DNA from: an uncultured Lachnospiraceae bacterium
GTDB lineage: Bacteria; Bacillota; Clostridia; Lachnospirales; Lachnospiraceae
NCBI GenBank assembly: GCA_947167135.1
Contig: CAMVGV010000018.1
Location: forward strand, 1 to 49,595
Direction: 5' to 3'
DNA length: 49,595 nucleotides
The notes beneath the pieces are model-generated. The model was not told where the DNA came from, ran no database searches, and worked only from the letters and a program-made list of their open reading frames with translations. Below, one piece after another: positions 6,017-29,647 of this stretch. Position 1 is the first letter of the stretch; each line of letters starts with the position of its first letter. Both the position numbers and the translations under genes were made by a program.

Positions 6017-7114
6017 TCACTCAACCAGAAATACCTCCGCCTCTTTTACCCCGAAGCGCTGAGCTTCCTCGTGGGTTGAGAGGAATACATCTATCCTGTT
6101 CCCCTTTATCTTCGATCCGCTGTCCTCTGCAGTATATATATGACCGTTTATCATAACCCTGCTGCCGAAGGGGATTACATTGGGATCCACTGCTATAGTC
6201 CTGCCAACCTCAGCCGTTGTGCCTGTGGCGGTGATCCCGTCTGTCTTGCCGCAGCAGATTATGCAGGCATCATAGGCAGTAAGCCTGAATATCCCGAGGC
6301 TTTCCCCTTTTTTGCCAAGAAGACTGTCCAATGAAAAATCCGTATCACCGGAGCCCTCGAATCTTTCGGATATCTGCTGCTGTTCCTCCTCTTTTTCTTT
6401 TTCCTCAAAGCTCCCGAGGGTACTCTTCAGTTCGTCACCCCGTAATTCAAAAATATCTTTTGTATTCTTCCGTACATTAGCAACACTGTCAAAGCGGATC
6501 CCCTTCAGTTTGGCCAGGGACTCGGTCTTTGTATTTTCCGTTGCCACTACCCGGTCTCCGTCATTATACTCCTTAGGATCGCTGATGACCTTATCCTCGA
6601 TCACCGGGCCGTACTTCTTTTCCATTTCCTTATCTATCCGGCTGACCTCCCGGGCCATAGCGGTCAGTCTCCCGTCAGGATCTCCTCCCCCGTCCCCGGT
6701 TCTTATCACACGGTCACTCTGCGGATCACTGGCTGTGATACCGGCCTTTTCCTCCGTGTCCCTTACCAGTGACGCGAAATCACTGAGCCTGTCCCCGGAG
6801 TCCGTTTCCTTCCGGTTTCCGCTGGCACTGCCGTGAGCTTCCTCCCGCTCCTTTTTTTCCTTCCCGTTCCCGGAGACCTTCTTCTCTGTTTCCTTACCGT
6901 TTCCTGAGAGCTTCTTCTCTGTCTCCTTCCCGCTTCCTGAAGGCTTATTCCGGGGAGCCGTTGCTTCCGCATCAATATCCTTTAACATATCGGAAAACTC
7001 TGAAAGCCGGTCATCTGCATGGAAGGATGTCCTTCCCGGCAAAAGAACGGCAGCTGCTGTCATTATGAGGCCGAAAAAAATGATCCGGCCTGTTTTGCAG
7101 CATCTCCTTCCCAC
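6017..7114 (-). CDS. Membrane-anchored 3D-domain (RlpA/YabE-like) cell-wall protein
   Basis: The protein (365 aa, GTG start, 3 nt after the upstream stop) has one N-terminal hydrophobic segment (~10-28) and a long charged, low-complexity linker. The linker includes tandem SGNGKETEKK-type repeats and a duplicated RLS-(D/E)-F motif. The C-terminal ~95 residues are a 3D domain: LTAYDACIICCGKTDGITAT, then DPNVIPFGSRVMING and the aspartates of EDSGSKIKGNRIDVF. 3D/double-psi-barrel domains act on peptidoglycan, in several cases as lytic transglycosylases. It ends the pilin/lipoprotein block, where a wall-opening enzyme would fill the VirB1 role. That role is inferred. Confidence 0.82.
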   Translation of the reverse strand: MGRRCCKTGRIIFFGLIMTAAAVLLPGRTSFHADDRLSEFSDMLKDIDAEATAPRNKPSGSGKETEKKLSGNGKETEKKVSGNGKEKKEREEAHGSASGNRKETDSGDRLSDFASLVRDTEEKAGITASDPQSDRVIRTGDGGGDPDGRLTAMAREVSRIDKEMEKKYGPVIEDKVISDPKEYNDGDRVVATENTKTESLAKLKGIRFDSVANVRKNTKDIFELRGDELKSTLGSFEEKEKEEEQQQISERFEGSGDTDFSLDSLLGKKGESLGIFRLTAYDACIICCGKTDGITATGTTAEVGRTIAVDPNVIPFGSRVMINGHIYTAEDSGSKIKGNRIDVFLSTHEEAQRFGVKEAEVFLVE

Positions 7115-7119
7115 CCTTA

Positions 7120-7890
7120 TCAGAACACTGCCCTTATCTCATAGAGTCCGGCGCCGTTTGAAGGCACATATTTCACCAGGGTATCCCCGACGGTAACCCA
7201 TTCACCGACCCTCAGTCCATTGGCATTATTATCCATCCAGCTGGAATAGATAGCCTGCGCCACCTTATCCCCGGAACGACTGATACAGTACATCCAGAGC
7301 CTCAGCACCTGATAGTCATAGAGAGCCATGCTGCTCCATTCCCCCGCATCATCCGTCATCTCTTTTTCGTCGCCCGCAAGTGGAGTCCGAACCTCTATGG
7401 TATAGCCGTTGAAATCCGGATTCTTGTATATGGAAAGCCTTGTGGTCTTCGTCCTCTCTTTTTCCGTCGATACAACCGATGAAAGCGTCATATGGCTGCT
7501 GAATACGGAGATCACCCTCCATCCGTGCAGGTCATTCGTGAGCTTTTTCTGGGCGCTCTTCATTATGGGGATCAGCATTTCAAAATCCCCAACATCCGCT
7601 GCCGTGAGCCAGCTGTTCCTGGCGGGAACCATAGCCCCAAGTATATTGTACGCTCCCATCCAGAAGCCGTTTTTATTCACATAGTAGCCATCTGCCGTAT
7701 AGCCGTCCGCAAGGAATTTCCCGTCCGTTGTCACATATGAAAGCACTCCTTCAACCGGTGTCGGGGTCCAGGTTCCCTTTACACCCATAGCTCCGGGACC
7801 TGCCTCGGTTTCCGCCGGTGACAGAACAGTGATCAGTGCCGCAGCCAGAATGACTGCAGTAATCCTCCTCAAACAACTTCTGCTCTTCAT
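7120..7890 (-). CDS. Secreted protein of unknown function in the T4SS-like block
   Basis: Starting at ATG 7890 (GGGAG just upstream) the protein has 256 residues with a signal peptide: basic MKSRSCLRR, hydrophobic core to ~25, probable cleavage after AETEA. An upstream start at 7944 would overlap the lipoprotein gene and lacks a site. The mature part is Trp/Tyr-rich (GKFLADGYTADGYYVNKNGF near its start) with no cysteine pattern or membrane anchor. I do not recognise the domain. It lies between the giant lipoprotein and the 3D-domain protein with tight spacing, so it is probably an extracellular component of the same machine. Confidence 0.75.
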   Translation of the reverse strand: MKSRSCLRRITAVILAAALITVLSPAETEAGPGAMGVKGTWTPTPVEGVLSYVTTDGKFLADGYTADGYYVNKNGFWMGAYNILGAMVPARNSWLTAADVGDFEMLIPIMKSAQKKLTNDLHGWRVISVFSSHMTLSSVVSTEKERTKTTRLSIYKNPDFNGYTIEVRTPLAGDEKEMTDDAGEWSSMALYDYQVLRLWMYCISRSGDKVAQAIYSSWMDNNANGLRVGEWVTVGDTLVKYVPSNGAGLYEIRAVF

Positions 7891-7915
7891 CTCCCTATTT
7901 CCTTTCTGTTCCGTT

Positions 7916-10900
7916 TTACTCCTTGCTTTCTTCAAAGCTCTCATCCGTCCTGGCCTCTCCCCTTCCGGTTCTCTTTATGACATAGCTGAGATAATCGTCC
8001 CAGGTCTCCTTCCTTCCCTTCAAAAAGCTCTTTACTGACGGATCATTCTTCAGCTCTCCGATCACTGCCTTATAAGCGGCAGATGTTCTTAAGAAGCTTA
8101 TCCTCTCTTTGCCCGTGAGCTCACCGGTACTCACCTTATCATTATAATCCGTGAGCCACTGTTTATATCCGGAATACCCGCTTCCGTTCCCCACCTTTTC
8201 GGAGATCACCAGCTCCTCCAGCTTCCAGACCGCATCCATAGCGGGCAGGCCCTCCTTTATCCGCTTTCTCATATCCTCAAGACCGGAGCCGGACACCTTT
8301 CCCTTCCCGTGGTTAATAAGGTCGGTGAATTCATCTGCGACACTGTCTCTGTGGGCTATGAAGTTATCGGGATTGATCTGGTTTAAGAGGGAGCTCGTGT
8401 AGCTTCTTAAATTCTCTCTCTTTTCAAATAAAGAAGGCTCCTTCTCTTCAGCGGAGAGCTTGCCCTCCCTGGTCTTCGTATAATACTCCTCCGCTAAGTC
8501 CTTTATCACATCCTGCTTATAGTTTTCCCTTAACCGGTCTCTTTCTGTTCCTGTCCCGTTTTCGCTTAAGCTGTCAAGCTGAGAGGTCCCGTCCTCGCTT
8601 CCGAATATCTCATTTGCGGACACCCTGCCATTATCCTTTGTCAGATCCAGCACTTCCTTATAGGACCGGTATTTATCCGCCTGCTCCTTATCAAGCTCCG
8701 GCAGTACATCATCATGCATCCTTATTTCAACGAGTATATCATATAATCCCTCCGCCTCGTTAGCCATAGTCATTCTGGATTCCAGATTCTTCCAGTAGCC
8801 TTCGGATCTCTTTGCAGTATTCCCTGCCAGGGATCTGGCTCCCGCAAGCTCATAGATCCTCGTGATGGCCGGCTTCACTCCGGCTATCCTCTCCCGTAGA
8901 TCCTTCACATAGTCATTTATTTCCCCGGTAGTTCTCTCTATACCGTATTTCTTTTCAAGCTCCAGAAGGGCAGTGGAATAGGACTTATTAGCGGGGTTGA
9001 AGATCCTTCCTGCTTCCCTGCTCTCCTGTTTCTCTTCCTCCGTGTTCTCCTTTGTCGTTATTTCATCATTTTCGCCAAACTCCGTCCTGAACTCCCTGTG
9101 GAGATAGTCCTTTGCGTATTGTTCAAGCATATGCTTAAAGGAGTCTATAACAGACCTTTCAAGCTCCGTTTCCCCATATTCCACAGAATAAACCTTTGCT
9201 CTCGGCAGATCCGTATCCGTATACGAAAAATCGGTATTTTCAAAACCAACAAGCTTAAACTCCCTGCTCCTTTCCAGCTGGAAAGCCCTGTAGTACGAGC
9301 CCTCCATATCATCAGCCACCGTGCCGTATGTCAGGTCAAGGATCTTCGTCCCGCCCTCCATAGAGCAGATAAGAGCCTTGTCCTTTGAAATAAGGCTGAT
9401 ATTTTTTGAGCTTGTAAGGTGCCCGGTATATCTCTCGTTGAAATCAACATTCAGAGTCGATGAGTCAAGTGCCAGCTCCTTATCAATTGACTCCGCATCG
9501 GCAGCATTGGCGCTTTCGCTGGTATTTCCGCTTAAGGTTGCGGCCTTTTGCTCTATCCTCTCTCTGCTTTCCTTAAGAGCGTCTTCATACCGTCCCTCGG
9601 CTTCCCTTGTATAGCCCGAAGAGGTGAGGAGCATCCTTAAACTCATAAAGCCCAGAAAATCCTCCTTTTCCACGCCGTTAACCAATCCCCCCTTTAAGAG
9701 AACTTCCCTGTAGGCCTCGTCTCCCCTGGCCTTGAATTCAAGAGGGCTGTACATATTGTGAATACCGCTTTTCAGCTCTCTTTCCCGAAACTCTTTCATC
9801 ATTTCCTCAGGAAGCTCCATGCTGACAGAATTCACTCCCTCTACTTCCCCCCGGTCTATTCTGTCCATTTCGTCGGCAGTGAGGCCGGTCATACCTTTTT
9901 CCTCTATCACATTTGCAAGTATATCCGCATTTTCCTGTCCGATAAACCTTGCAAGCTTTATATTGTCAAGGCGTTCTTCAAATCCGTCCTTCCCGCCTTT
10001 TTCAAAGAACCTCACACCCTTGTCGGTTCGAAGGGCAAGGATGTTTCTCACACTCTGACCGTCATCATAGCTAAGAGGCGAAATATCCATAGGTTTCCCG
10101 TAGGTATACTTATTAAAGAAGTCAACAACACCTACGCTTTTATATCCCACGGCATAGGTATTGCCCTTAAAGGCCTTCGACGTATTTTCCGCTGCGATGA
10201 GAACTCCGTCATAGAAGGATTCCGACTTTCCTCCGACCGTCTCCGCCTGACCGCTTTCCTTTACTGTAACAGTGGCACCCTGTGGGAAAATAAGAGTGTA
10301 TGATATGGGATATTCCTTACATTCCTGAACATCTATGGAAAAACCGGCGCAGAGATAGAGCATCCCCTCCCTAATATCCTCAGGGATCTCTTTGGCAAGC
10401 TCCTCCACCCTTTCGAGCATTTTCTTTTTCAATCTGTCGCTGCCGCGTGCTATTGCCCTCTGTCCTTCCTCAATAAGTGTGCTCCCCTTTAATAGCCTTT
10501 CAAGCACTTCCTCGTCCACATCAAGACCTTCTTCCTCAGCCTTGTCTATGGTCTTCAGAATCTGCTCATACTCTTCGTCGCTTAATTTCCCCTCATCATG
10601 CTTTTCTTCTGCATCATCCCTCATTTCTTCATACAGAGTCTCAGGATCCTTGTCCGCCATATCCTCTTCCTGCTCTTCCACAAAGTCCTCGATCTCTTCA
10701 TACTTATCGTCATCAAGATCCCCGTCGTCATTAGCTTCCTCAGCCTTATCCGCGATCTCGTCAAGAAGCTCCTCCATATCCCCGGTGGCCTCTTTTACCA
10801 GCCATGCCAGCTCCATATTCTGCCAGGTTTTGGTATCTGTCCGGAGGATATCCGTGATCTCATCGATAGTTGCCTTTACATCATCCGAAAGCCCTGACTC

Positions 10901-12847
10901 CTTTATCACTTCTTCCTTCTGCTTATCAGCTGTTTCAAGGTCATAAATATAGCAGGTGCGTTTTCTCTTCTTTTCCGTTTTGTAGGGCTCCATTTCAAGT
11001 TTGGTCTCATAAGCCTTTTTTAGGGATTCTTCAAAGTGTAAATTATCCGAGTCCTCAGGAAAATAGTCTACGGGAGCAATGTAATTCTTGTAAACACCGT
11101 TTGAAGAAACCATACTCAGGGTATGGTCAGACATCTTGCTCACACCATATACATTTATGGGCGCCAGGGAATAAAACCCGATCTCAGACCCTTCCAAATA
11201 TTCCCCCGGTTTTAAGATCCACCCGTAGTCATTAAAGAAAGCAAGAGTAGACGCGGAGTCTTTATCCGCATTCTTTTCCTTCAAGCCTCTTGGCAGAGCA
11301 TCCGCCACAATGGTCTGTAATGCTCTTTTTGCGGGAATATCCAAAGACGTGAGATGTGATATAAGCATCACCCTTCTATCGTAGTCATTTATATCATTTT
11401 TATGTTCAAGAAGGTATATAATAAAATTAATATCAGACTCTTTTACTCCGCTGTCCTTAAAAAGTCCGGTCATAAAATTATGATCAAACCATGAAGACGG
11501 AATGTCGGCAATATCCGGTATCTCTATAAATACAGAGGCATCTCCCTTTTCATCTCCGGCGATAAAGGGTGAAAAATCGTCCTTATATTCATCACCGGAC
11601 TTTCCGGACTTCAGATCATCCATACTGTATCCCAGAGTATTTCTGTATTCGTCATAACTCTTAAAAAACCGGTTGTCCAATGACAGCCACGTCTCCCTCT
11701 GCTTATCCGCGTTATAGTTTACGGAAATATATGGTGCTGCTCCGTTCCCGGAATCAAGAGACTGTCTGTAGATCATGTATGTGGTACTGATCTCCGCAGA
11801 AGCAGCCATAGGGTTTTCCCCGAGAAAGAAAGTCGCACCGAGATAAGACTCATAGGAATCCGTCATGGACACTCCTGTAATGAGGACATTCATGGGATTG
11901 TCCCCTGCACCTCCGGGTTTTACGCCCTGATCATTCTTTCCCGACGAATCGAGCCATTTATCGAATTTATCATCTCCTTCGAACCTGTCGCTGTCTGACA
12001 TACGTGTTCTGTCGATCCGCAGCTTATACAAGCTTTCCTGCTTATTTTTTGCTTCATTATCCAGGGTGTTTTTGTATGTCATTGAAAACTTCCTGTTGCC
12101 CCTGGCATCAAATACCATACCGGAAAGACTTCCCTGATCCACTATCAGATATTCCTCCCTGCCTGCCACCTTACAGGCAAGAGCCCTCTCCGAAATAAAT
12201 GCATCATATGTACTATCCTCCTGCTGCACCAAATAATAATAGGGCCGCCCCTCCTTCTCAGGATCAAATTCATTGACCTTATCTATTTCATAGGTCTTTG
12301 CGAGCATGACCCGGTATTTGCCGCTGTCCGGATTATAGGACATCAAAACCTCTGCATCATATTCGTAGTCTTCCCTTCTGCCCTCGGGATCTGGCATGAC
12401 CCTTCTGTTCGCAACCATTCCGCTTTTCTTCTGGCCGCTGTTATACTCTTCGATATCCTCAGGCGCCGCGTAGCAGGGAGTCACATAGTAATATACAAAT
12501 TCCCCAAGGGAATTGTAATCCAGCACCTCAAAGCACGCCATGGCTCCCGGTATATTCTCAAGTCCCGGAAGTATGTAAAAGGCGTTGACTCCTTCCACGC
12601 TGAATCTGTCTGTGGAGAAATCAACCTCCTCTTTTTCCCTTTTTGTGGGTATCTCCCTGGAGACTGAATTAATACTTACTTCTTCCTTTTGTACGGGCTC
12701 CTCCGTGGTCTGGGTTACAAGGCTTCCTCCCCCGCAGCCTGAAAGCTGCAGCACAAGGGAAAAGGCAACAAAAAAAGACAGCATCCGCTTAAGGAACGTA
12801 TTTCGATCATATGATTTCTTTACGGTCTTCACGGATGCTGCCTTCAC
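7916..12847 (-). CDS. Giant (1643 aa) lipoprotein of unknown function
   Basis: The N-terminus ends in the lipobox LQLSGC with Cys38, or Cys17 if translation begins at the internal ATG (12784) rather than GTG 12847. It should be lipid-anchored on the outer face of the membrane. Residues ~60-680 look like a mixed, probably repeated beta-rich region; ~690-850 is an extremely acidic helical stretch (DKAEEANDDGDLDDDKYEEI); the remainder is mostly helical. No enzyme motif was found. It follows the pilin gene after 15 nt and precedes the secreted and 3D-domain proteins, so it is a candidate surface scaffold, adhesin or substrate of the T4SS-like apparatus. Confidence 0.8.
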   Translation of the reverse strand: MKAASVKTVKKSYDRNTFLKRMLSFFVAFSLVLQLSGCGGGSLVTQTTEEPVQKEEVSINSVSREIPTKREKEEVDFSTDRFSVEGVNAFYILPGLENIPGAMACFEVLDYNSLGEFVYYYVTPCYAAPEDIEEYNSGQKKSGMVANRRVMPDPEGRREDYEYDAEVLMSYNPDSGKYRVMLAKTYEIDKVNEFDPEKEGRPYYYLVQQEDSTYDAFISERALACKVAGREEYLIVDQGSLSGMVFDARGNRKFSMTYKNTLDNEAKNKQESLYKLRIDRTRMSDSDRFEGDDKFDKWLDSSGKNDQGVKPGGAGDNPMNVLITGVSMTDSYESYLGATFFLGENPMAASAEISTTYMIYRQSLDSGNGAAPYISVNYNADKQRETWLSLDNRFFKSYDEYRNTLGYSMDDLKSGKSGDEYKDDFSPFIAGDEKGDASVFIEIPDIADIPSSWFDHNFMTGLFKDSGVKESDINFIIYLLEHKNDINDYDRRVMLISHLTSLDIPAKRALQTIVADALPRGLKEKNADKDSASTLAFFNDYGWILKPGEYLEGSEIGFYSLAPINVYGVSKMSDHTLSMVSSNGVYKNYIAPVDYFPEDSDNLHFEESLKKAYETKLEMEPYKTEKKRKRTCYIYDLETADKQKEEVIKESGLSDDVKATIDEITDILRTDTKTWQNMELAWLVKEATGDMEELLDEIADKAEEANDDGDLDDDKYEEIEDFVEEQEEDMADKDPETLYEEMRDDAEEKHDEGKLSDEEYEQILKTIDKAEEEGLDVDEEVLERLLKGSTLIEEGQRAIARGSDRLKKKMLERVEELAKEIPEDIREGMLYLCAGFSIDVQECKEYPISYTLIFPQGATVTVKESGQAETVGGKSESFYDGVLIAAENTSKAFKGNTYAVGYKSVGVVDFFNKYTYGKPMDISPLSYDDGQSVRNILALRTDKGVRFFEKGGKDGFEERLDNIKLARFIGQENADILANVIEEKGMTGLTADEMDRIDRGEVEGVNSVSMELPEEMMKEFRERELKSGIHNMYSPLEFKARGDEAYREVLLKGGLVNGVEKEDFLGFMSLRMLLTSSGYTREAEGRYEDALKESRERIEQKAATLSGNTSESANAADAESIDKELALDSSTLNVDFNERYTGHLTSSKNISLISKDKALICSMEGGTKILDLTYGTVADDMEGSYYRAFQLERSREFKLVGFENTDFSYTDTDLPRAKVYSVEYGETELERSVIDSFKHMLEQYAKDYLHREFRTEFGENDEITTKENTEEEKQESREAGRIFNPANKSYSTALLELEKKYGIERTTGEINDYVKDLRERIAGVKPAITRIYELAGARSLAGNTAKRSEGYWKNLESRMTMANEAEGLYDILVEIRMHDDVLPELDKEQADKYRSYKEVLDLTKDNGRVSANEIFGSEDGTSQLDSLSENGTGTERDRLRENYKQDVIKDLAEEYYTKTREGKLSAEEKEPSLFEKRENLRSYTSSLLNQINPDNFIAHRDSVADEFTDLINHGKGKVSGSGLEDMRKRIKEGLPAMDAVWKLEELVISEKVGNGSGYSGYKQWLTDYNDKVSTGELTGKERISFLRTSAAYKAVIGELKNDPSVKSFLKGRKETWDDYLSYVIKRTGRGEARTDESFEESKE

Positions 12848-12862: not shown

Positions 12863-13285
12863 TCAATATGTTACATTCATTTTTGTATTGGTGCTGTTCT
12901 GAACCCAGGTTACAAGTGTGGGAACCATAAGTCTCATAACTACAATCAGAATGAAGATGAGGAAGAAGCCTATGATGGCGTTCTTTAATGCCATCTTTGC
13001 CTTTTCTCTTTCCTGCGGCTCATCAGCCTTTGCAAGCTTCACTCCGAGGATAACACAGTAGATAGCACCTACAGCCACAACTACGGAAATAACAGGTCCT
13101 ATAAGGCTGTTGATAAGACTTACAACAGGAGATGCTGCATTTGAAAAGTCAACTCCTCCGCCTCCTCCTGAAGAGGAAGAACCGGTGGTCTCACCAGCAA
13201 ATACCAGGGTGCTGTTTGCCAGTGTAAATACGGCAAATGTTAAGAGTGTCAGGGGGTACTTAATTTTAGTAATAATGTTCTTCAT
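12863..13285 (-). CDS. VirB2/TrbC-like pilin subunit
   Basis: This 140-residue protein has a signal peptide (to about VFAG, residue 31), a short Ser/Gly-rich stretch, and two hydrophobic helices (~55-85 and ~103-122). They are joined by a charged loop, KLAKADEPQEREKAKMALKN. That topology is that of VirB2/TrbC-type pilins, including the short pilin-like proteins of Gram-positive T4SSs. It would be the structural subunit or the membrane pore of the secretion apparatus. A strong AAGGAG precedes the ATG. It sits between a single-span Ig-like protein and the giant lipoprotein. Confidence 0.82.
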   Translation of the reverse strand: MKNIITKIKYPLTLLTFAVFTLANSTLVFAGETTGSSSSGGGGGVDFSNAASPVVSLINSLIGPVISVVVAVGAIYCVILGVKLAKADEPQEREKAKMALKNAIIGFFLIFILIVVMRLMVPTLVTWVQNSTNTKMNVTY

Positions 13286-14302: not shown

Positions 14303-14610
14303 CACATTACCGCAGAGGCTTCCCTTGACGGACCGCTGTTTTGTCTATGGGCTTTCTTCTGCATACCTCCGGTCATTTCGGATCCGCCCGATTCTGCCCT
14401 GGCTCTCCTCTCTATTTCCTCCAGCTCCTTTAGGGTGATACGGCGTACATAAGGGTTATTTCCAACTGTCCGGCTTGCCCGGCCGCTTCCGTCAATAACC
14501 TTCCTCTCCGGCTTATATCCTTCTTCCTTCCGCCGTTCTCTCTCCGCATCCAGACTTGCCAGTTCCTTGTTCCAGAGAGCCATATTTTTCGGACTGTCAA
14601 AAAAGGCCAA
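14302..14610 (-). CDS. Unknown small charged protein, first gene of the pilin block
   Basis: The 102-residue protein starts with TTG at 14610, eight bases after AAGGGGG. It is soluble and highly charged, with helical segments (LWNKELASLDAERERRKEEG and LKELEEIERRARAE). No family is recognised. A copy of the 33-bp promoter-like element ends about 20 nt upstream, making this the first gene of a transcript running through the pilin, lipoprotein and 3D-domain genes. An overlapping 62-codon ATG frame (14430-14618) looks less natural and was not chosen. Confidence 0.65.
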   Translation of the reverse strand: MAFFDSPKNMALWNKELASLDAERERRKEEGYKPERKVIDGSGRASRTVGNNPYVRRITLKELEEIERRARAESGGSEMTGGMQKKAHRQNSGPSREASAVM

Positions 14611-14668: not shown

Positions 14669-14950
14669 TTATTCGATCACCAAAAATCTGGAATAACCGG
14701 TCACATCAAATATCTCCTTGACCGCATTCGACACATTGATCAGTGTCTCACTGCCGCCTCCCTTTTTCATTTTTTTCTGTATGAAAAGTACGGCACGAAG
14801 CCCTGCAGAGCTCACATACTTATTATCAGCAAAATCGATCACCAGATCGATGGAACCGTCACCGGTCACCTCTTCCAGCTCCTTCTGCACCTCCTGTGCA
14901 TTATTGGCATCCACCCTTTCTCTGAGCTTGTATACTACTTTTTCTGACAT
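14669..14950 (-). CDS. STAS-domain anti-sigma factor antagonist
   Basis: This 93-residue stand-alone STAS protein resembles SpoIIAA/RsbV. The key loop KYVSSAGLRAVLFIQKK (residues ~44-60) includes the Ser normally phosphorylated by an anti-sigma kinase and dephosphorylated by SpoIIE-type phosphatases. A strong AAAGGAGG precedes the ATG. No RsbW-type HATPase kinase is visible in the window; its kinase may be elsewhere or be one of the APH-fold proteins. A SpoIIE phosphatase is encoded at 34295-36532. The gene lies between the repeat cluster after the VirB4 operon and promoter element B. Confidence 0.9.
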   Translation of the reverse strand: MSEKVVYKLRERVDANNAQEVQKELEEVTGDGSIDLVIDFADNKYVSSAGLRAVLFIQKKMKKGGGSETLINVSNAVKEIFDVTGYSRFLVIE

Positions 14951-21190: not shown

Positions 21191-22435
21191 TCATTCCTTA
21201 CTGTTTTTATTCATATTGGCAAGAGCGCCGCCCAGGGCTTCCCCTGCCTTGGAAGCGCCTCCGGTTGCATATGCTGCCGCCGCAGATGCGGCCTTCTTTG
21301 TTGCGTCCCCGGCCATCTTTGCCAGGAATTGCGACTGCTTCAGAAGCCCTACCGTTTCAGGGCTGAATATCTCCAGGATGAGATACTGGCTCTGCCAGGC
21401 TCCTACCAGTCCGAACCCGGTTATGGCAAGCTTCAATATCCATCCCGTAAAGGGATTGAATTCACTGCCGAAGCTTATATCCCCCGAAATCCCGATGTTT
21501 ACGAGGAGAATATTATATACCCTCATTACCAGAAGAGGTCCGAAGGTGGCAAAGGAAAATCCCACGAAGAGCCTTCTCCAGCTCTTGAATTTCTCTCCCC
21601 CGTCCAGTGGTATCATTGATACGAACCAGGGACTCGTAAGGAAGAGGATCGCAAGCATAAGCGCCCTCATGACCGCCTGCATAACTATGGTTATCATCAC
21701 CACGATCATAAATATCACGACCACATATGCATATAAATAATTTATATCTCTCCATTTTATATAGCTTCTGCTGGAGAGCTTTGAGAACATCCTGCCGGTT
21801 GAACATATCTTTCTCCCCGCCTCCGACTTCCAGTTGTCCCCTACTATCAGAACAAAAACTATGTCTGTGATCCTCTGGTCCTGGAACTCTCCCGCAGTCT
21901 GTGCGATTATCCTCGTAATGGCGCCTGCAAGCTTCATCACAGCAATACAGGCCGTAGGGATGAGAAGGAAGGTGAGAATTGCCTGGAAAGCCTGCCGCAG
22001 AACCGCAGTAACCGGCCTTCTCAGCTCACTTATACCCTCTCCCATGGACTTTATCACCGCAATGATAGTGAAGAAGAAACACAAAACGGTTGCAGCCAGC
22101 ATAAAATACCAGTAGGCATTCTGCACCGGACTCCCGATAAATACGGCGGTCATAAAGTCCTCCTGTCCGAGAACATTACCCGCAGTATCGTTCACATACA
22201 CGATCTGGGTTCCGGAAAATACATCAAAGGCCTGCTCCAGCACCCATACCAGATCCAGCAGCAGAATCAGAAAGAAATAGGCCTGCGTGTACAGGTACTC
22301 CCTTAATAGCTGTATCGCAAGTCCCTGAACCGACCAGAACACCCCTTTAATGATGTCCACGATCTGGTTTTCCACTATGAAATCCATGAGTGCATTCATC
22401 ATGGAATTGAAGCTTAAGATTGTGGGATAGAACAA
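21191..22435 (-). CDS. Second VirB6-like polytopic membrane protein
   Basis: The 414-residue protein has about six to seven membrane helices, including a long hydrophobic pair (YAYVVVIFMIVVMITIVMQA) and an Ala/Gly-rich C-terminus (KKAASAAAAYATGGASK). The layout matches the membrane half of the 806-residue neighbour and the paired VirB6-like proteins seen in Clostridia conjugation modules. The start is TTG 22435, with AAGG within reach; an internal ATG (22402) lacks a site. It follows the 541-residue gene without a gap. Probably part of the translocation channel. Confidence 0.82.
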   Translation of the reverse strand: MFYPTILSFNSMMNALMDFIVENQIVDIIKGVFWSVQGLAIQLLREYLYTQAYFFLILLLDLVWVLEQAFDVFSGTQIVYVNDTAGNVLGQEDFMTAVFIGSPVQNAYWYFMLAATVLCFFFTIIAVIKSMGEGISELRRPVTAVLRQAFQAILTFLLIPTACIAVMKLAGAITRIIAQTAGEFQDQRITDIVFVLIVGDNWKSEAGRKICSTGRMFSKLSSRSYIKWRDINYLYAYVVVIFMIVVMITIVMQAVMRALMLAILFLTSPWFVSMIPLDGGEKFKSWRRLFVGFSFATFGPLLVMRVYNILLVNIGISGDISFGSEFNPFTGWILKLAITGFGLVGAWQSQYLILEIFSPETVGLLKQSQFLAKMAGDATKKAASAAAAYATGGASKAGEALGGALANMNKNSKE

Positions 22436-22436: not shown

Positions 22437-24062
22437 CTATACTACCTTCACTTTCTTTTTCATCCTTACAAGGTAAATTATCACACCCGCTATAAGAGCC
22501 ACCACTGCGATAATGGCTATCACTGCCGCTGCATTGATACGGTAGTTCACGGTAAACTCCGACTCGGTATAGTTTCCCGCGTTATCATAGACATATAGCG
22601 TGTACTTACCGGGTTTGGTAACAGTCTGCAAAAGCTCAGGATCACTTACGAGCTCGTCTCCTTTGTAAAGAACGGCTCGTGAAACATCATTGCTAAGATA
22701 GCTGATAGTTGCCTCATTCGGCTGCACTCCGACCGATACAACAGGCTGAACAGTGTCCAGGGTGAAGTATATATCCCTGCTTCCGGCATCATCCTCCAGA
22801 GTAAGCTCGTACTCTCCGTCCGAAGCAAGATAAACGGTATCCCTGCTTATGAAGGCTTCCTCATGGCTTAAATCCAGGCCGTTACAACGTACATTCCTTA
22901 TGGCCATACCGTCCGGAGCGGTGATAATACGGAGATCGGAAACCGGTCCGTTCACGATCCGGAACCTTATTGCAGGATTTCCCTTGCTGTACTTCTGGCT
23001 GAAAGCACTGTCTCCTTCCTTGGAAACATATACCTCAAAGCTGCCGGTGGTCTGTATGTATTCTCCCGGGGCAAAATCCTCGAAGGGCTGCCCGTTCATA
23101 TATGCCGTAAAGGTCAGGCCTTCCGCTTCCTGAACAAGCACTCCCTCATTGCTGATACCCCCGTTTGGAACGTTGCTGTAGAAGAAATCCCCGGTTCGGA
23201 GTGTGTTCCGGTAGTAGCCCATATCGCTGTCGTACTCACTCTTCAGCTCTTCTTCCTCGGGAGGTGCAGTCTCTTTCGGCTCCTCCGGTTCCTCCTCTGT
23301 AAGGTTCTCGAATTCGCTTTCGTCGTATTCAAAGTCATCCGGAAGCATATCCTCAGGCAGATACTCCGGGCTCTCGGTCAGTTCGTTTGCGGAGACCTCT
23401 TCCTCTGTGGCTCCCTCTCCGACTACTCCCGCGACTCCGGGAGAATATTGTATCCTGAAGCGGAACTTTGCCCTGAGGTATGTCTGTGAAGCAAAATTCT
23501 TTACATCTTCTCCATTTGATACTATATAGAAGTTCAGGACATAGCTGCCCTCCCTGTCCAAAACCTGCTTTGAAGCAAAGGCCATGTCGGATCCGTCTTT
23601 TTTCAGAGAAACCCCGACGCCCTTTGGCACATCTATCACAACCGGCCTGTTGGTGACTCCGCCGTTTTTTACATTCGTATATATGGTGTAATCTTCTCCC
23701 AGCTTCTCCTCATACACCTTGTAATCTTCGTGGTAAAGCTCATCCAGCGATGCTTCTTCAACGGAAGGTCCTATGGGTTCCGTTTCCATCCTTTCCATTA
23801 TCTGCTCCATCGTCACCGTGGAGGATGACGACGTGGTGGATGATGAACTGGAAGAACTGCTGGACGAAGATGAATCTCCGTAGATAGCTCTCAACGCATC
23901 ATATAAGCTCTGCCCCGTACCGGAAGAAGACGATGTAGTTGATGATGATGACTCTTCGTCAGCCCTTATCTCTACAGAGTTCGCGAATACAGCAAGAAAC
24001 AGTATCCACAGTGACAGCAGTGATACCGTTGCGTATCCAAGTAACCTTTTAAGTCTCTCCAT
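22437..24062 (-). CDS. Signal-anchored, Ser-rich extracellular Ig-like membrane protein
   Basis: The 541-residue protein has a signal peptide or anchor (to ~32), then a Ser/Thr-rich low-complexity stretch (~37-90). Two related extracellular domains follow, marked TNVKNGGVTNRPVVIDVPKG and SNVPNGGISNEGVLV, with an acidic linker between. An Ig-like domain ends in YVYDNAGNYTESEFTVNY, followed by a membrane helix (~512-533) and a basic tail (RMKKKVKVV). ATG 24062 lies four bases after the VirD4 stop. It shares its design with the 327-residue protein at 13322. Likely a surface-exposed T4SS-associated subunit; no family name can be given. Confidence 0.78.
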   Translation of the reverse strand: MERLKRLLGYATVSLLSLWILFLAVFANSVEIRADEESSSSTTSSSSGTGQSLYDALRAIYGDSSSSSSSSSSSSTTSSSSTVTMEQIMERMETEPIGPSVEEASLDELYHEDYKVYEEKLGEDYTIYTNVKNGGVTNRPVVIDVPKGVGVSLKKDGSDMAFASKQVLDREGSYVLNFYIVSNGEDVKNFASQTYLRAKFRFRIQYSPGVAGVVGEGATEEEVSANELTESPEYLPEDMLPDDFEYDESEFENLTEEEPEEPKETAPPEEEELKSEYDSDMGYYRNTLRTGDFFYSNVPNGGISNEGVLVQEAEGLTFTAYMNGQPFEDFAPGEYIQTTGSFEVYVSKEGDSAFSQKYSKGNPAIRFRIVNGPVSDLRIITAPDGMAIRNVRCNGLDLSHEEAFISRDTVYLASDGEYELTLEDDAGSRDIYFTLDTVQPVVSVGVQPNEATISYLSNDVSRAVLYKGDELVSDPELLQTVTKPGKYTLYVYDNAGNYTESEFTVNYRINAAAVIAIIAVVALIAGVIIYLVRMKKKVKVV

Positions 24063-24065: not shown

Positions 24066-26450
24066 TCAGACTGCTGCCTCCTCCATTTCATCATCGGAGA
24101 GCCACTCTGATGAGCTTTCCTCATAATCCTTCATAAGGTCAGCCATGATCTCCATAACACTCTCCTCATCGATATCATCGGATCCTTCATCCGTGATATC
24201 GTCCTCCAGGTCTTCAGTATAATCCCCTTCATCCCCTTCATACTCTTCGTCTTCATCATAGTAGTCTTCATCTTCCGGCTCCCCACCGTCCTCATCAGAC
24301 TCCCATTCAGGATCATACTCCCCCTGAGGATCCCCGTATTCCTCCCCTTCAATCCCGGGATCTTCATTTATGACATCATCCTCAGCTTCCATGGCTTCTC
24401 CTTCAGCCCCGGCTCCTTCGGACTCTTCCCCTGTCTCCTCTTCCTTTCCCTCATCAAGTATCAGATAATTTCTCTCATCAAGATCGTAGTACACATCATC
24501 ACCGAAAAACACATTAGACCTCACTTCTGTCAGATCCATCTGACCCATCTCATATAAAGGACATTTGTAGGAAGGCGTAAATTTGGTCATCAACGGATAA
24601 TTATTGAAGGTGACCACAATGGAATTACCTGTACTCTTCGCATTGTTCAGCCTCGTAAGCTCATTCGGATAAATAAGCGGTCTCTGCTGCAGCTGGGTGG
24701 ATACGTTGATATTACCGGTCTTGTCCTTCAGTCCCGATGAAACGCTGGAGGTTTTGACGGTCATATTACCGCAGAGCTTTGAAAACTCCTCACAGGTAGG
24801 CATATCATTTGAACCGATGAACAGCTTGATACCGCAGTTGCCCTTTACGATATCCGCTACTGTTTCACCGTAGACGTTCTTTAGCTGGGCAAAGGACTGC
24901 ACTATCATCTCAAACCAGATCTTCCTCGACCGGCCGACCGTGATCATCTTGTCGAACTTATCGATCTTCGGCATGTTTCCGAATTCGTCCAGGAGGAAGA
25001 AAACGTTCCTCGGAAGGGAAAGATCCTCTCTTGCGGATGCCACCTTGATAAGCGCCTTGTAAATACAGAGGATAAATACCGCCGCAAGGGCATGTCTCGT
25101 ATCCTTTTCATCAGGTATCTTTAAGAAAAGCGCCGTCGGCCTGTCGGCAAATTCCTCGGGCTTTATGTCTGTAGCACTGGTAAGGGCACAGAGTCCTTCA
25201 TCATTGAACATTGAGAGCTTGTCAAAGGCAATACTCATATATGATGAAAGGGTCTGGTCGGCAGCGGACAGAACCTGCTTGGAAAGACCCACCGCCTTTG
25301 AAAGCTTTGATCTTCCCTCGAAATAGTCCTTTAATGCCGCAAATTCATTTTCAGAATTTGACACCGCCTTGTTTATGTTGTAGAAGCAGAACTTATCCTT
25401 GGTCATCTCGAGCTTAGGATCCTCGGAGTCCTCAAGCATTGCGAGAGCAGTTGCCATGATTATGGATCTGGCACCCTTCTCCCAGACGGGATCCTTTTCA
25501 TTCTCTATGGGGCAGATAACCGAGATAAGGTCGTTTAAGTCCTCATAGCATTCATCGTAAAGCTTCTGCTTTTCCACCCTGGCCTTGTTTATCAGGTCTA
25601 TGCGTACCGCATAGGCAGAGCCCTGCCACTCATACCAGGGTTCCCCGTCACTGAACTGTGATCTGTCGTGAACCTTCTTCAGATCAGGATAATCATCTAT
25701 GGAATCGGTGTGCTCCAGAATATCGTCACCCATATGGAGATACTCCTGATACACGTCAAAGATCGATCCCAGCGGATTCCAGCGGAAGGAACTGTAGGGA
25801 TCACGGAGGTCAAGAACCATGCACTTGTATCCGTTTTCCGTCAGCAGCTTGGAGTGAAGCTGGAAAAGCTCTCCCTTAGGATCCGTGCATATCATTGACG
25901 AACCCGCCTTTGCACGTCCCAGTATCTGGATAACGGGATTCACAAAGGTGGTGGTCTTACCGGAACCGGTAGCACCGATGATGATGCCGTGAGCCGGAGA
26001 GATTATATTTATGTCCATATCCTTTTTCTTACTGTTATATACCGCGTAAAGCGGAATCCCGTCCTTCTTCAGATCCTTTAGCTTCTTAAACTGAGTCTTC
26101 GGAAAGAGCTCGTTTCTCTCCTTTTCCTCCATCCAGCGGGAGTTTTCAAGGGATCCCTCAACTCTCTCGGTCTTTCCCCCAAGCATATTTTTCGACGCCT
26201 TAAGCACGCTTCCGCTGCTGCTGACCAGCACGAAAGCGAAGATCACGCCCATCTCAGCCAGGCCGTACATAAGGGTTGTAGGCGAAAGGATCTCGCTCAT
26301 TTCCGATCCGGAAAACGCGAGGCTCCCCGTGGAAAAATAAGATGAAAGACCTATCAGCACGGACTGCGTCAAGACCCCGAGGAAGATCACACCGCCTATT
26401 GAAAGCGGTATCCATTTTATCAAGTTTAATCCCGAACCCTGCTCATCCAT
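24066..26450 (-). CDS. virD4: VirD4/TraG-type coupling ATPase with acidic C-terminal tail
   Basis: The 794-residue protein has two N-terminal membrane helices (~14-35 and ~58-80), Walker A IIIGATGSGKTTTFVNPV (~150-167) and Walker B NVFFLLDEFGNMPKI (~478-492), typical of type IV coupling proteins. These recruit substrates, DNA-relaxase complexes or effector proteins, to the T4SS channel. The last ~125 residues are almost entirely Glu/Asp/Tyr, a feature of some coupling proteins and a plausible substrate or adaptor docking tail. Start ATG follows AAGGTGG. No relaxase accompanies it in this window, so the substrate is unknown. Confidence 0.95.
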   Translation of the reverse strand: MDEQGSGLNLIKWIPLSIGGVIFLGVLTQSVLIGLSSYFSTGSLAFSGSEMSEILSPTTLMYGLAEMGVIFAFVLVSSSGSVLKASKNMLGGKTERVEGSLENSRWMEEKERNELFPKTQFKKLKDLKKDGIPLYAVYNSKKKDMDINIISPAHGIIIGATGSGKTTTFVNPVIQILGRAKAGSSMICTDPKGELFQLHSKLLTENGYKCMVLDLRDPYSSFRWNPLGSIFDVYQEYLHMGDDILEHTDSIDDYPDLKKVHDRSQFSDGEPWYEWQGSAYAVRIDLINKARVEKQKLYDECYEDLNDLISVICPIENEKDPVWEKGARSIIMATALAMLEDSEDPKLEMTKDKFCFYNINKAVSNSENEFAALKDYFEGRSKLSKAVGLSKQVLSAADQTLSSYMSIAFDKLSMFNDEGLCALTSATDIKPEEFADRPTALFLKIPDEKDTRHALAAVFILCIYKALIKVASAREDLSLPRNVFFLLDEFGNMPKIDKFDKMITVGRSRKIWFEMIVQSFAQLKNVYGETVADIVKGNCGIKLFIGSNDMPTCEEFSKLCGNMTVKTSSVSSGLKDKTGNINVSTQLQQRPLIYPNELTRLNNAKSTGNSIVVTFNNYPLMTKFTPSYKCPLYEMGQMDLTEVRSNVFFGDDVYYDLDERNYLILDEGKEEETGEESEGAGAEGEAMEAEDDVINEDPGIEGEEYGDPQGEYDPEWESDEDGGEPEDEDYYDEDEEYEGDEGDYTEDLEDDITDEGSDDIDEESVMEIMADLMKDYEESSSEWLSDDEMEEAAV

Positions 26451-26465: not shown

Positions 26466-27377
26466 TCATACCTTTCCCTGAAAGAACCTCGTTACAAAAA
26501 GGCTTTCCCTTTCTGCTCTGTAGAGCTTGCTGAAGAGCAGTGCAAAGGCTCCCCCTGTGACTCCGAGCATCAATACAAAAGGTTTGTTCTCCTCCAGAAA
26601 CACCTTTGTCTCCGGTCTGAAAAGATACAGGAACCAGAGGACGGTGGAAAACAGATTAAAGCCCATATGCACGCATATGGCGTAAAAAATGTTGTCTTCA
26701 TATATCGAAACCCTGCCTATGATCCATGCCATGGCGAAGGCATAAGCCATCCAGAGCGCCGTCCCATGCATCAGGGCGAATAAAAAGCTTACCGTGAACA
26801 GCGCCCTTTTCTCGCCCCAATGCGGCAGGAGACCGTTCAGCATATATCCTCTGAATATCACCTCTTCCACTATGGGAGTGAAAAAGGTATTGAAAAGCAC
26901 CGCAACATATAGTGACCAGGTGTGGTACAGCCTATCCATGGTGGCACTGTAGGTCGCCATCGGTCCTATCTTCGGAAGGAGGGAAATAAATGCCGAAAGC
27001 GCCAGGGACAGCCCCAGCCCGAAAACAATAAATCCCACCGTTTTTACAATACTTATATTGTTCAGGTAAAGAGAGGCATCCTCGAAAAAGGTACTGCTTC
27101 TCTTTTTTGAATACGCTCTCAAGAGAACAAAGGTAAGCATCACCCCTGCCATCATATAGAGGTTCATCTTCTGTTCTCTGAATTCGGCATGGCTAAGATT
27201 CGAGTGGATCAGGGTTGATCCCAGAACCACCAAAAGTGCCTCCGCCGCAATATAGATCACAAGGGGACCCACAGACGGAATAAAATAGCGAAGGAAGGAT
27301 ATGACCTTATGCTCTGCCTTATCCCTCACTCTGGTCGCTTTATTTTCGGTTTCTTCTCCCCTCAGGTTATACTTCAT
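26466..27377 (-). CDS. CPBP-family intramembrane metalloprotease
   Basis: This 303-residue polytopic membrane protein has about eight helices. It carries the CPBP (CAAX protease/bacteriocin processing) motifs: EEVIFRGYM (the Glu-Glu and Arg motif, ~170-178), FALMHG (~203-208) and HMGFN (~249-253). Family members cleave prenylated or leader-containing peptides, or act in self-immunity and export. It lies between the coiled-coil protein and VirD4, only 15 nt before the latter, so it is probably part of the same operon. Processing of the pilin or lipoprotein is a possible role, not shown. Confidence 0.88.
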   Translation of the reverse strand: MKYNLRGEETENKATRVRDKAEHKVISFLRYFIPSVGPLVIYIAAEALLVVLGSTLIHSNLSHAEFREQKMNLYMMAGVMLTFVLLRAYSKKRSSTFFEDASLYLNNISIVKTVGFIVFGLGLSLALSAFISLLPKIGPMATYSATMDRLYHTWSLYVAVLFNTFFTPIVEEVIFRGYMLNGLLPHWGEKRALFTVSFLFALMHGTALWMAYAFAMAWIIGRVSIYEDNIFYAICVHMGFNLFSTVLWFLYLFRPETKVFLEENKPFVLMLGVTGGAFALLFSKLYRAERESLFVTRFFQGKV

Positions 27378-27421
27378 ATCCTGTGCTCTGCTTCAGGCCG
27401 GTCTGCCTTCAAAAAGATGAC

Positions 27422-29647
27422 CTACATTCCCATAGCATTCTTCTGCGGCGCCTTCATCTGAGTCTGTCTGGATCTTCTCTTTGACTGCTCTGCCTGAAGT
27501 CTGCGGTTTCTTGCTGCATCCCTCTTCTGCTTTGCAGCTTCCAGCTTCTTATTGGACTCATCGAGCCGTCTCTTATTCTCCTGATGCTTTTCGGTATTGG
27601 CAGCATTTCGCTGACCCCTTGCGGCTCTCATCTCGGTCCTTAAATCTGCGATCTTCTTTTCACGCTGCTCTTGGGCCTGCCTGCGTTCATTTATCTTTCC
27701 GGCCTTCTCCGTGAGAAGCTGCCTGCGCTTCTCGTAATCGGCAACTATGTTCAGTTTATCTATCCTGTTATTCTCATTAAGGCGTTTACGGACGTCCTTT
27801 CCGGCCTGTCTTGCAGCATCCACTGCGGGACCCTTCATTTTGCTGCTTAAGGATTCCTTCATAAAACCGTCCGCTGCATTATATACATTAACATACGCAT
27901 CTGCGTTGATGCCTCCGTTCTTTTTCCCCATAGTGTTCTTAAGTTCACTCAAAGCACCATGGAATTTTTCGGCGCCGGGGCCAAGCTTGCCATTGGCATC
28001 CCTCATATTATCCAGAGAGCTGATGGCCTTATCGATCTCGTTCTTTGAAAACCATTTCATCTCCAGATTATTTGTAGCAGTGAACTGACGGTTATTATTT
28101 CTGGCATCGGCTCTGGCCTCCGCTCTCTTTCTCATTTCGGTTTCCTGAAAATGATCCACGGAATTAAGAAGCTTCTGGGCTCCTGTCCTCGCCTTCATCA
28201 TCTCCGGACTCAGGGTCTCATACTGGCCCTTCCTCGCACCCTCATTTATGAGCTTTGGCTTCGTGGCATCAAGGAAATTCTTTGCGGCGTCATAGGTTCT
28301 TACCGTATCCTCCGCATTTGTAAGCTTGTCTAAGTCCTTATTATTGAAGTCCACGACCTCTTTATTATACTTTTCAACCGCATCCAGCACACTCTTGTCT
28401 GCGCCCTCAGCCTTTAGCTTATCACTGAGCCTTACTATGCTTGTCTCAGCCTCCGCGAGATCCTTCTCCTGAAATGGTGAGACATCCGGGTTGATATTGT
28501 CATTAATGAGCATTCCCTTGTTGATCAATGCCTTTTCACTGGCTATCGCGTCCTCCTCTATCTCCCGGTTCAGTTCTGCGCGGTCATCCTCAAGAGCGGT
28601 ATCCTTCTCGGACTTCAGCTTTGAGATCTCTTTTATTTTTTGATCCATATCCAGCTGATGGTAGCCTATCATGTCCTCAGTCTGGAGCACTTCACTTTCG
28701 ACCTCGGCTTTAACGGCATCATTTTCAGCCTTTACCTGCTTATATTCTTCATTTGCTTCTTTTAATTCCTTTGTACTGTTAATTAGCTCTTCTGCAATCT
28801 CACTGTCAGATGGGCTGTTTTCCTGCTTTTCCGCCCCGGCCTGCTTTTCAGGCTGTTCATTGACAGGCTGCTCCTGCTGCTTTTCGGCCTGCTCCTTAGA
28901 AGGCTGCTCCTGCTGCTTTTCGGCCTGCTCCTTAGAAGGCTGCTCCTGCTGTTTTTCAGCCTGCTCCTTAGAAGGCTGCTCCTGCTGCTTCTCAGCCTGC
29001 TTCTCCGGCTGCTGCTCCTGCATCTGGGGATTCTGCACCTGCTGCATCATCTGACCCTGGTACATCTGCTGCATCTGCATCATTCCGCTCATCATGGTCT
29101 GCATCATCTGCATGCAGACATTCATCATGATGCCCATCATACCGCCCATCTGCATATTGCCCATATTCATATTAGGCATCTGCATATTGCCCATATTCAT
29201 GTTGGGCATCTGCATATTTCCCATGTTCATATTGGGCATCTGCATATTTCCCATATTCATATTAGGCATCTGCATATTTCCCATCTGGGGCTGGCCGTCC
29301 TTGGCCGGTGCAGCCTGCTGCTTCTGGGGGGCGTTCCCCTTCTGAGGTCCGCGCTGCATCTGGGTCTGCATATTCTGAAGCTGCTGCATACCCTGATACA
29401 TCTTCATGGTGGAGTCCATCATGGTCTGCATATTTTTCATATGGTTCTGGCTCTTCTGATTCTGATTCTCATTTTCGTTCAGAGTTCCCAGATACCCTGC
29501 CTTCATCCCGTTCACGAAGCTTTTGATCACATCGATCAAAAGATCCATGATAAACGCAAAGGGATCATCGACCGGCCTCTTCTCGTCCTTGTCCTTCTTT
29601 TTTTCTTTTGTATCTTCTACGTTGTTTTCATCTTTAGCATCAGCCAT
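27422..29647 (-). CDS. Met/Gln/Asn-rich repeat and coiled-coil protein, first gene of the VirD4/VirB4 block
   Basis: The chosen ATG (29647) lies after AAGAGGTG; an in-frame GTG at 29656 overlaps that site. The protein (741 aa) has no signal peptide. Residues 1-~55 are charged with one amphipathic helix. Residues ~60-210 are Met/Gln-rich, with four tandem MPNMNMGNMQ decapeptides. Three tandem EQPSKEQAEKQQ dodecapeptides follow (~222-260), then a ~450-residue helical coiled-coil region ending in an Arg/Lys/Gln-rich tail. I do not recognise it. A cytoplasmic scaffold, chaperone-like adaptor or the secreted substrate are all possible; being first in the operon fits an adaptor or substrate. Confidence 0.75.
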   Translation of the reverse strand: MADAKDENNVEDTKEKKKDKDEKRPVDDPFAFIMDLLIDVIKSFVNGMKAGYLGTLNENENQNQKSQNHMKNMQTMMDSTMKMYQGMQQLQNMQTQMQRGPQKGNAPQKQQAAPAKDGQPQMGNMQMPNMNMGNMQMPNMNMGNMQMPNMNMGNMQMPNMNMGNMQMGGMMGIMMNVCMQMMQTMMSGMMQMQQMYQGQMMQQVQNPQMQEQQPEKQAEKQQEQPSKEQAEKQQEQPSKEQAEKQQEQPSKEQAEKQQEQPVNEQPEKQAGAEKQENSPSDSEIAEELINSTKELKEANEEYKQVKAENDAVKAEVESEVLQTEDMIGYHQLDMDQKIKEISKLKSEKDTALEDDRAELNREIEEDAIASEKALINKGMLINDNINPDVSPFQEKDLAEAETSIVRLSDKLKAEGADKSVLDAVEKYNKEVVDFNNKDLDKLTNAEDTVRTYDAAKNFLDATKPKLINEGARKGQYETLSPEMMKARTGAQKLLNSVDHFQETEMRKRAEARADARNNNRQFTATNNLEMKWFSKNEIDKAISSLDNMRDANGKLGPGAEKFHGALSELKNTMGKKNGGINADAYVNVYNAADGFMKESLSSKMKGPAVDAARQAGKDVRKRLNENNRIDKLNIVADYEKRRQLLTEKAGKINERRQAQEQREKKIADLRTEMRAARGQRNAANTEKHQENKRRLDESNKKLEAAKQKRDAARNRRLQAEQSKRRSRQTQMKAPQKNAMGM
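28868..28990 (-). repeat. 36-bp in-frame tandem repeats
   Basis: About three near-identical 36-bp units encode EQPSKEQAEKQQ within the 741-residue protein. The DNA units are nearly identical, so the array is young or kept uniform and may vary in copy number between strains. Confidence 0.9.
29150..29272 (-). repeat. 30-bp in-frame tandem repeats
   Basis: Four 30-bp units encode the decapeptide MPNMNMGNMQ. They differ only at a few third positions. The array lies in the Met-rich part of the same gene. Confidence 0.9.

Follow-up and report, generated by a model that had tools for sequence, protein, structure and literature searches.

A chromosomal type IV secretion-like locus of Lachnospiraceae and a helical module in large candidate effector proteins

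The locus and its genes

The stretch of DNA analysed here (the window, 49,595 nucleotides) is the whole of contig C18 (CAMVGV010000018.1) from the genome of an uncultured Lachnospiraceae bacterium (GCA_947167135.1, here G000; 2.91 Mb, 99.8% complete, 119 contigs). It carries a block of genes resembling a type IV secretion system (T4SS). We propose, with a probability of roughly 0.7, that this is a chromosomal T4SS that translocates effectors, has no relaxase of its own and acts on protein substrates that are mostly encoded elsewhere. The case is computational: an operon, its synteny in relatives, the scarcity of relaxases near it, a module (working name TAM) common to large leaderless proteins, the basic tails of these proteins, and the co-occurrence of module and system. 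Translocation is what we infer.

The block occupies 4855-29656 on the minus strand and forms a single operon-like unit according to the open reading frame (ORF) listing and Pfam. Intergenic gaps are -29 to 82 bp, except for one of 239 bp between the STAS and SBP3 genes. The genes are given below in their order from 29656 downwards. Fractions refer to the 35 loci with full flanks among the best 80 related loci (next section), scored with longest-ORF gene calls and iterated hidden Markov models (HMMs), a procedure that undercounts short or antisense-masked genes and sets some starts too far upstream.

27422-29656, minus: leaderless coiled-coil/repeat protein of 744 amino acids (aa) with a basic tail, candidate substrate or cytosolic partner (profile in 3/35)
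26466-27377, minus: CPBP/Rce1-like membrane protease (PF02517, 3.4e-16; 30/35)
24066-26450, minus: VirD4-type coupling ATPase, 794 aa (Pfam T4SS-DNA_transf, 7.5e-50; 35/35)
22437-24062, minus: Ig-like wall protein, 541 aa, with signal peptide and C-terminal transmembrane anchor (weak BiPBP_C, sequence and kept position)
21191-22435, minus: VirB6-like polytopic membrane protein, 414 aa (topology and kept position)
18689-21109, minus: VirB6-like polytopic membrane protein, 806 aa, with a long Gly/Ser/Asn-rich tail (topology and kept position)
15953-18685, minus: VirB4 ATPase, 910 aa, hallmark of the system's own VirB4 clade (Pfam P-loop_TraG, 1.7e-19)
15190-15942, minus: solute-binding-like lipoprotein (SBP3) adjoining VirB4 (SBP_bac_3, 3.5e-11; 32/35)
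14669-14950, minus: free STAS protein, anti-anti-sigma-like (STAS, 2e-13; 21/35)
14302-14610, minus: small soluble protein of 102 aa, p102 (23/35)
13322-14305, minus: Ig-like wall protein, 327 aa, with C-terminal transmembrane anchor (weak BiPBP_C/Big_13, sequence and kept position)
12863-13285, minus: VirB2-like pilin (PF18895 T4SS_pilin, 5e-11; 27/35)
7916-12847, minus: giant lipoprotein, 1643 aa (lipobox LSGC; family in 29/35)
7120-7944, minus: secreted 274-aa protein, p274, with a choline-binding-like wall-binding repeat and a kept C-terminal domain (alignment, weak Choline_bind_2; 20/35)
6017-7114, minus: 3D-domain protein, candidate wall-remodelling enzyme and VirB1 substitute (Pfam 3D, 2.7e-17; only 2/35)
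4855-5934, minus: STAS-APH kinase-like fusion, candidate regulator (STAS, 6.2e-11; APH, 5.5e-10)

Every gene that a preliminary description of this DNA had named in the block is present, on the minus strand and tightly spaced. The free STAS protein, the solute-binding-like lipoprotein, the 102-aa protein and the STAS-APH fusion are additions to it, and its 741-aa protein has 744 aa when the upstream GTG start is taken. Neither VirB6-like protein was matched in the Pfam scan, so these two calls are made from topology and position; VirB6 was scored in 33/35 of the loci. The Ig-like assignments are Pfam matches below cut-off (BiPBP_C, Big_13). VirD4 ends in a very acidic tail, with a net charge of -58 over the last 120 residues. 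In a structure model, compared by fold look-up, the N-terminal part of the 1643-aa lipoprotein is predicted to be beta-rich with helical insertions and is weakly beta-propeller-like.

A conserved gene order in Lachnospiraceae and other Clostridia

The distribution of the system was followed with its VirB4 in G000 and 98 relatives (99 genomes, 48 of them in the same genus). The clade is present in 18 of the 99 and in 16 of the 48, with identities of 47-96% within the clade and of 23-35%, over shorter stretches, to other VirB4s in these genomes. When genome contigs were scanned with the VirB4 alignment (E 1e-3), 483 stretches proved to encode a relative. The best 80 of these were examined. They are 50-100% identical, have matching loci, and come from Lachnospiraceae and other Clostridia. 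Named carriers include Butyrivibrio sp. WCD3002, Hungatella hathewayi, H. effluvii and Lachnospiraceae bacterium AD3010; the genomes surveyed are mostly fragmented metagenome-assembled genomes.

The order kept in relatives, with variations, is CPBP-VirD4-Ig-VirB6-VirB6-VirB4-SBP3-STAS-p102-Ig-VirB2-lipoprotein-p274. Most of it recurs where VirB4 has diverged to about 50% identity, so the arrangement is more than chance. In some distant Clostridia VirD4 is placed elsewhere in the cluster, and four of these loci encode a protein with a VanY-like peptidase motif, as judged by eye. One VirB4 ORF, of 1384 aa, is far longer than usual (L055, G049:C26:81942-86096), and several other family members likewise have open frames of 1271-1606 aa around VirB4, which suggests fusions. 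The genome G004 holds a second, diverged copy of the system (L039, G004:C52).

Relaxases, integrases and flanking sequence

The preliminary description had seen no relaxase and no intact integrase in the window, and both observations stand. No relaxase family was matched among the 39 distinct window ORFs scanned with Pfam. PF03432 was searched (E 1e-3) under 36 genome handles, representing 34 distinct carriers because G027 and G004 were entered twice. It matched somewhere in 18 of the 36 handles, G000 not being one of them. Within 50 kb of the system VirB4 it was found in 1/34 carriers, as far as contigs reach, many locus contigs having less than 50 kb on a side. This relaxase lies 13 kb from the VirB4 of the second copy in G004. 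Three matches share a contig with VirB4 at a distance (G124, 229 kb; G032, 278 kb; G125, 350 kb) and the remainder are on other contigs. The near-complete G032 serves as an internal control (n=2): it also has two ordinary conjugative VirB4s, and each of these lies about 8 kb from a relaxase. PF02486 and PF03389, the two further relaxase families searched, had no match within 300 kb on the locus contigs of 22 genomes. In the same search H. effluvii gave a weak 36-bit match 327 kb off. The single PF03389 relaxase of G000 is encoded on contig C9, away from the window contig.

No record among 72,556 plasmids and 50,697 phages reached at least 60% identity to VirB4. Below this level 1257 plasmid and 45 phage records matched; among the 25 plasmid matches listed, identity is 23-29%, and ATPases of mollicute integrative and conjugative elements are among the best.

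The left end of the window begins with a tRNA gene cut by the contig end (1-59), followed by a decayed tyrosine integrase (242-424, minus; PF00589, 5.8e-11). An MNT/HepT-like pair (504-833, 824-1342) lies beyond it. The distance between this old integration site (positions 1-1342) and the block common with the close relative G027 is 1.2 kb. That block (2557-31355) is collinear with G027 contig C10, its flanks are not, and the right flank of the window maps to G027 contig C11. The decayed integrase is not on the G027 contig sharing the block, and no direct or inverted match of at least 11 bp joins the block ends. In G032 no PF00589 integrase occurs within 50 kb of the operon, serine recombinases lying outside that search; H. 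hathewayi has one about 36 kb from VirB4. In anatomy it is no conjugative element: within the families, contigs and records searched, the window's locus has neither a linked relaxase, nor a bounding intact integrase with repeats, nor a plasmid or phage counterpart at 60% identity. The preliminary description had called the system fixed, which does not agree with its presence in 18/99 genomes and the differing flanks in G000 and G027. It had also named strain-variable presence with attachment-site repeats as the mark of an ordinary conjugative element; the patchiness was found, and repeats of at least 11 bp at the block ends were not.

These data bear on the possibility that the locus is a relic or helper conjugation machine, which lost its relaxase or moves mobilisable elements in trans. 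The decayed integrase beside the tRNA, the patchy presence and the differing flanks are compatible with it, as are the PF03432 relaxases in G004, G124, G032 and G125 and the relaxases elsewhere in many carriers, including that of G000. However, the operon is intact over wide divergence and VirD4 is kept at 35/35 loci, which is not decay. The integrase is missing from the G027 block contig, the block ends share no match, relaxases are scarce near the loci, and the co-occurrence with TAM described below would be left unexplained. We therefore regard this origin as unlikely.

A helical module in large leaderless proteins

Among the unassigned proteins of the loci are large, leaderless, helical proteins, several of them kinase-like. 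They have in common a helical module of about 70 aa, the TAM, which forms three helices in the structure model of a kinase protein. The TAM HMM was started from seven seed stretches picked by eye and then iterated. It recovers 26 domains in 21 proteins, from 16 loci or contigs, and these are clearly separated from the noise. Some TAM genes lie inside or beside T4SS loci. Searches used E 1e-3 in the 99-genome set and 1e-4 in the family and class sets. TAM occurs in 17/99 genomes. G000 has four copies, none on the window contig, in ORFs of 731-2278 aa.

Thirty unlinked copies were read, and in 29 the end of the protein is complete. Of these 29, 23 have the module 65-96 residues from the C-terminus and six have it at 198-486 residues. 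The net charge of the last 30 residues is +3 to +9 in 29/29, and no 19-residue stretch exceeds a hydropathy of 1.49.

An independent check used 20 stretches from eight genomes outside the model (G277, G447, G192, G362, G237, G445, G449, G231). The stretches were chosen by TAM match (E 1e-3 or better) and 30 proteins were read. The charge of the last 30 residues has a median of +4.5, versus -1 in 81 neighbours of at least 200 aa (p 3.4e-7), and reaches +4 or more in 17/30 versus 5/81. TAM ends 54-99 residues from the C-terminus in 15/30, and none of the 30 proteins has a 19-residue stretch above 1.5 hydropathy.

Some TAM proteins carry kinase, Fic, ADP-ribosylglycohydrolase or Ntox11 domains. 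One locus protein (L112) has a kinase fold with DRHxxN and a metal-binding Asp, as in PI4K/Fam20/HipA-like kinases. TAM genes also form clusters of four to seven (L161, G004:C17; L190, G192:C95; L191, G362:C131), and on G004 C17 seven of eight same-strand ORFs are TAM genes. Two ORFs that combine a kinase motif with a TAM at the N-terminus (L104:19974-22691, L108:19953-22691) also match the p274 profile.

The same proteins weigh on a second alternative, which follows a suggestion made for Saccharibacteria. Here the machine would be a surface appendage such as an adhesion pilus, or a system for taking up DNA or nutrients, and the TAM proteins would be its regulators or cytosolic partners. The VirB2-like pilin, the wall-binding protein, the propeller-like lipoprotein and the solute-binding-like lipoprotein beside VirB4 would suit such a role. 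The T4SSs of Patescibacteria, which are mostly without relaxase and have PF18895-type pilins (PMC12102498), also speak for it. Yet VirD4, the type of ATPase that recruits substrates, is kept in 35/35 full-flank loci; most TAM proteins end in a basic tail, and some contain a toxin or enzyme domain. This alternative appears slightly less plausible still than a conjugative relic.

Co-occurrence of the module and the system

Co-occurrence was assessed with Fisher tests that ignore phylogeny. In the 99 genomes both TAM and the system VirB4 are found in 12, TAM only in 5, VirB4 only in 6 and neither in 76 (p 8.9e-8). In 397 Lachnospiraceae genomes the system VirB4 is present in 21 and TAM in 19, a 22nd VirB4 hit (G279, 216 bits) having been dropped as outside the clade. 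Here both occur in 15, TAM only in 4, VirB4 only in 6 and neither in 372 (p 3.5e-19). The association persists when the five seed-giving genomes are removed (10/4/6/372, in the same order; p 3.6e-13), and the 15 genomes with both are 15 different genera of the family sample. In the class set TAM is found in 2/391 genomes, both carriers of the system; one carrier, G070, is without TAM. One TAM-only genome of the family set, G448 (68% complete), is probably a carrier because it has the system VirD4 at 65% identity; no system VirD4 was found in the eight other TAM-only genomes checked.

It is very improbable that TAM and the system meet simply as members of one accessory gene pool in some lineages, with nothing to connect them in function: both are patchy within one family, exceptions such as G040 exist and the tests leave phylogeny aside, but the double-positive genomes are of 15 genera, TAM is absent from 372/376 non-carriers, TAM genes lie inside or beside some T4SS loci, and elsewhere they are mostly on contigs other than that of VirB4, so that hitch-hiking is unlikely.

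Proposed mechanism and candidate substrates

In an effector-translocating T4SS of this kind, VirB4 and VirD4 would power a membrane translocon. This would be formed by the two VirB6-like proteins, with a VirB2-like pilus or conduit mounted on it. The Ig-like anchors, the wall-binding protein, the wall enzyme and the propeller-like lipoprotein may replace the usual VirB8/VirB1 wall complex. The same wall and surface proteins (Ig-like, wall-binding, 3D and giant lipoprotein) may contact the target cell, which could be bacterial or eukaryotic. Large cytosolic effectors, mostly encoded outside the locus and some with kinase, Fic, ADP-ribosylglycohydrolase or toxin domains, would be recruited by VirD4 through the TAM of about 70 residues and a basic C-terminal tail. 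The C-terminal ends of the system VirD4s are acidic in all those listed except L138 (+1), and they could dock the basic effector tails; over the last 120 residues the charge is -26 to -85 in the window's own genus and often only -1 to -18 elsewhere. The anatomy resembles that of an effector-translocating T4SS; the TAM module, the basic tails and the co-occurrence support dedicated protein substrates, and the system is a candidate member of that class.

The preliminary description had proposed a substrate other than DNA, and the TAM evidence supports a protein substrate. Its own two candidates fare differently. The 1643-aa lipoprotein is more likely a part of the machine or the surface: with its lipobox it should leave by Sec and is hardly a T4SS substrate, and its weak beta-propeller likeness also speaks against that role. 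The 744-aa protein has no signal peptide and a basic tail (+8), homologues at the same place were found in the genus only, and it is a possible substrate or cytosolic partner. The likely substrates are mainly outside the window, as a scattered modular repertoire.

Several observations weigh against an effector-translocating T4SS with TAM as its signal. Besides the relaxase 13 kb from the second copy in G004 and the PF03389 relaxase of G000, they concern the tails, the module and the exceptions to co-occurrence. VirD4 tails are mildly acidic in many relatives, the charges being known for system VirD4s only. TAM lies 158-571 residues from the C-terminus in the other 15/30 independent proteins, and N-terminally in the kinase proteins. 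Not all of the independent tails are basic: some have no net charge or a negative one, as low as -8. At most 2/30 of these proteins have a Pfam family at E 0.001. The 744-aa window protein has no detectable TAM. Within the genus alone the association is weaker (both 11, TAM only 5, VirB4 only 5, neither 27; p 6.9e-4). The system occurs without TAM in 6/18 carriers of the 99-genome set and 6/21 of the family set. TAM occurs without the system in G003, G009, G011, G019 and G040 of the former and in G357, G468 and G479 of the latter. G040 is 98% complete and has four TAM matches, the Fic-TAM protein among its products, with no system VirB4 or VirD4; loss of the system, an assembly gap or independent use may explain this. 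One G040 TAM protein is very close to one of G000 (L162, L163).

A wider reading, which we hold as tentative and somewhat below even odds, is that these loci represent a whole class of Gram-positive T4SS, so far without a name, that injects effectors and recognises them by a domain of its own. Commensal Lachnospiraceae of the rumen and gut might use it to deliver sets of several effectors (PI4K/CtkA-like kinases, Fic proteins, ADP-ribosylglycohydrolases, toxins). The recipients might be rival bacteria or eukaryotic cells, for instance gut epithelium or the ciliates of the rumen.

Regulatory and neighbouring genes

STAS, SpoIIE and HATPase-like genes occur at some loci, which suggests control by partner switching; a switch of the STAS/SpoIIE type probably controls the system. 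Two further genes of the window may belong here.

34295-36532: Cache-SpoIIE (PP2C-type) phosphatase, possible STAS partner (SpoIIE, 3.9e-44; strand -; 5/35)
2948-3472: ECF-type sigma factor, recurring beside some loci (Sigma70_r2, 2.4e-11; strand -; 4/35)

In G032 the SpoIIE phosphatase gene adjoins the operon. Beyond the block, at higher coordinates, the window contains an APH-like gene, sensor/regulator genes with the SpoIIE phosphatase, and an operon (39831-49094) of Mbh/Mrp-type antiporter and NADH-dehydrogenase-like subunits. A PAS ORF of 112 aa (30985-31323), at the edge of the collinear block, looks truncated and matches part of a 498-aa G027 gene (C10:4501-5997). Repeats of about 55-75 bp with many copies in G027 and G040 (window 29863-29938, 34193-34299, 39665-39731, 49246-49421) resemble dispersed intergenic repeats.

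Comparison with known systems

The T4SSs of Patescibacteria/Saccharibacteria are monoderm, chromosomal and mostly without relaxase, with a PF18895-type VirB2 and a VirB8 that is hard to find (PMC12102498). Monoderm hosts, chromosomal location, paucity of relaxases and the PF18895 pilin are common to both systems, as is the difficulty of finding VirB8. Unlike them, the system described here has VirD4 in the operon and strictly kept, other wall proteins, and effector-like proteins with a shared module.

Conjugative systems of the MPF_FATA/FA type (pCF10, Tn916 and kin) have a similar monoderm core of VirB4, VirD4 and VirB6-like proteins. In contrast to these, relaxases are hardly ever near the loci described here and no VirB1 or VirB8 was seen; VirB4 identity is 23-35% to others in the sampled genomes and below 30% in the 25 listed plasmid matches. 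The X-T4SS of Xanthomonas and Stenotrophomonas kills bacteria by delivering toxins that have a C-terminal recognition domain in common. It is Gram-negative, its domain is different from TAM, and it is accompanied by immunity proteins.

The 89K T4SS of Streptococcus suis is Gram-positive and is reported to secrete SspA-1; its locus lies on a pathogenicity island and comprises the usual set of six conjugative subunits (PMC12857230), whereas the present family is chromosomal and syntenic and has a candidate substrate module of its own. The effectors (Beps) of the Bartonella VirB/VirD4 system carry a bipartite signal of a BID domain and a positively charged tail. As in the TAM proteins, the parts are modular, with varied N-terminal domains including Fic, a helical module and a positive tail (PMC6509941). 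However, the Bartonella machine is Gram-negative and the system here is Gram-positive, and TAM is shorter than BID and not always C-terminal. When TAM proteins were scanned with Pfam, BID was not among the matches listed, the Pfam copy used not having been checked for a BID model.

A 2025 review treats a dedicated Gram-positive effector T4SS as a long-standing question and DNA transfer as nearly the only known function (PMC12857230). The TAM module in large effector-like proteins is new. Should the proposal hold, commensals of the rumen and gut would be injecting proteins into their hosts or neighbours. With this family the Gram-positive effector question becomes directly testable, since the machine is defined, a signal and lists of effectors are at hand as candidates, and isolates that carry the system are known by name (AD3010, WCD3002).

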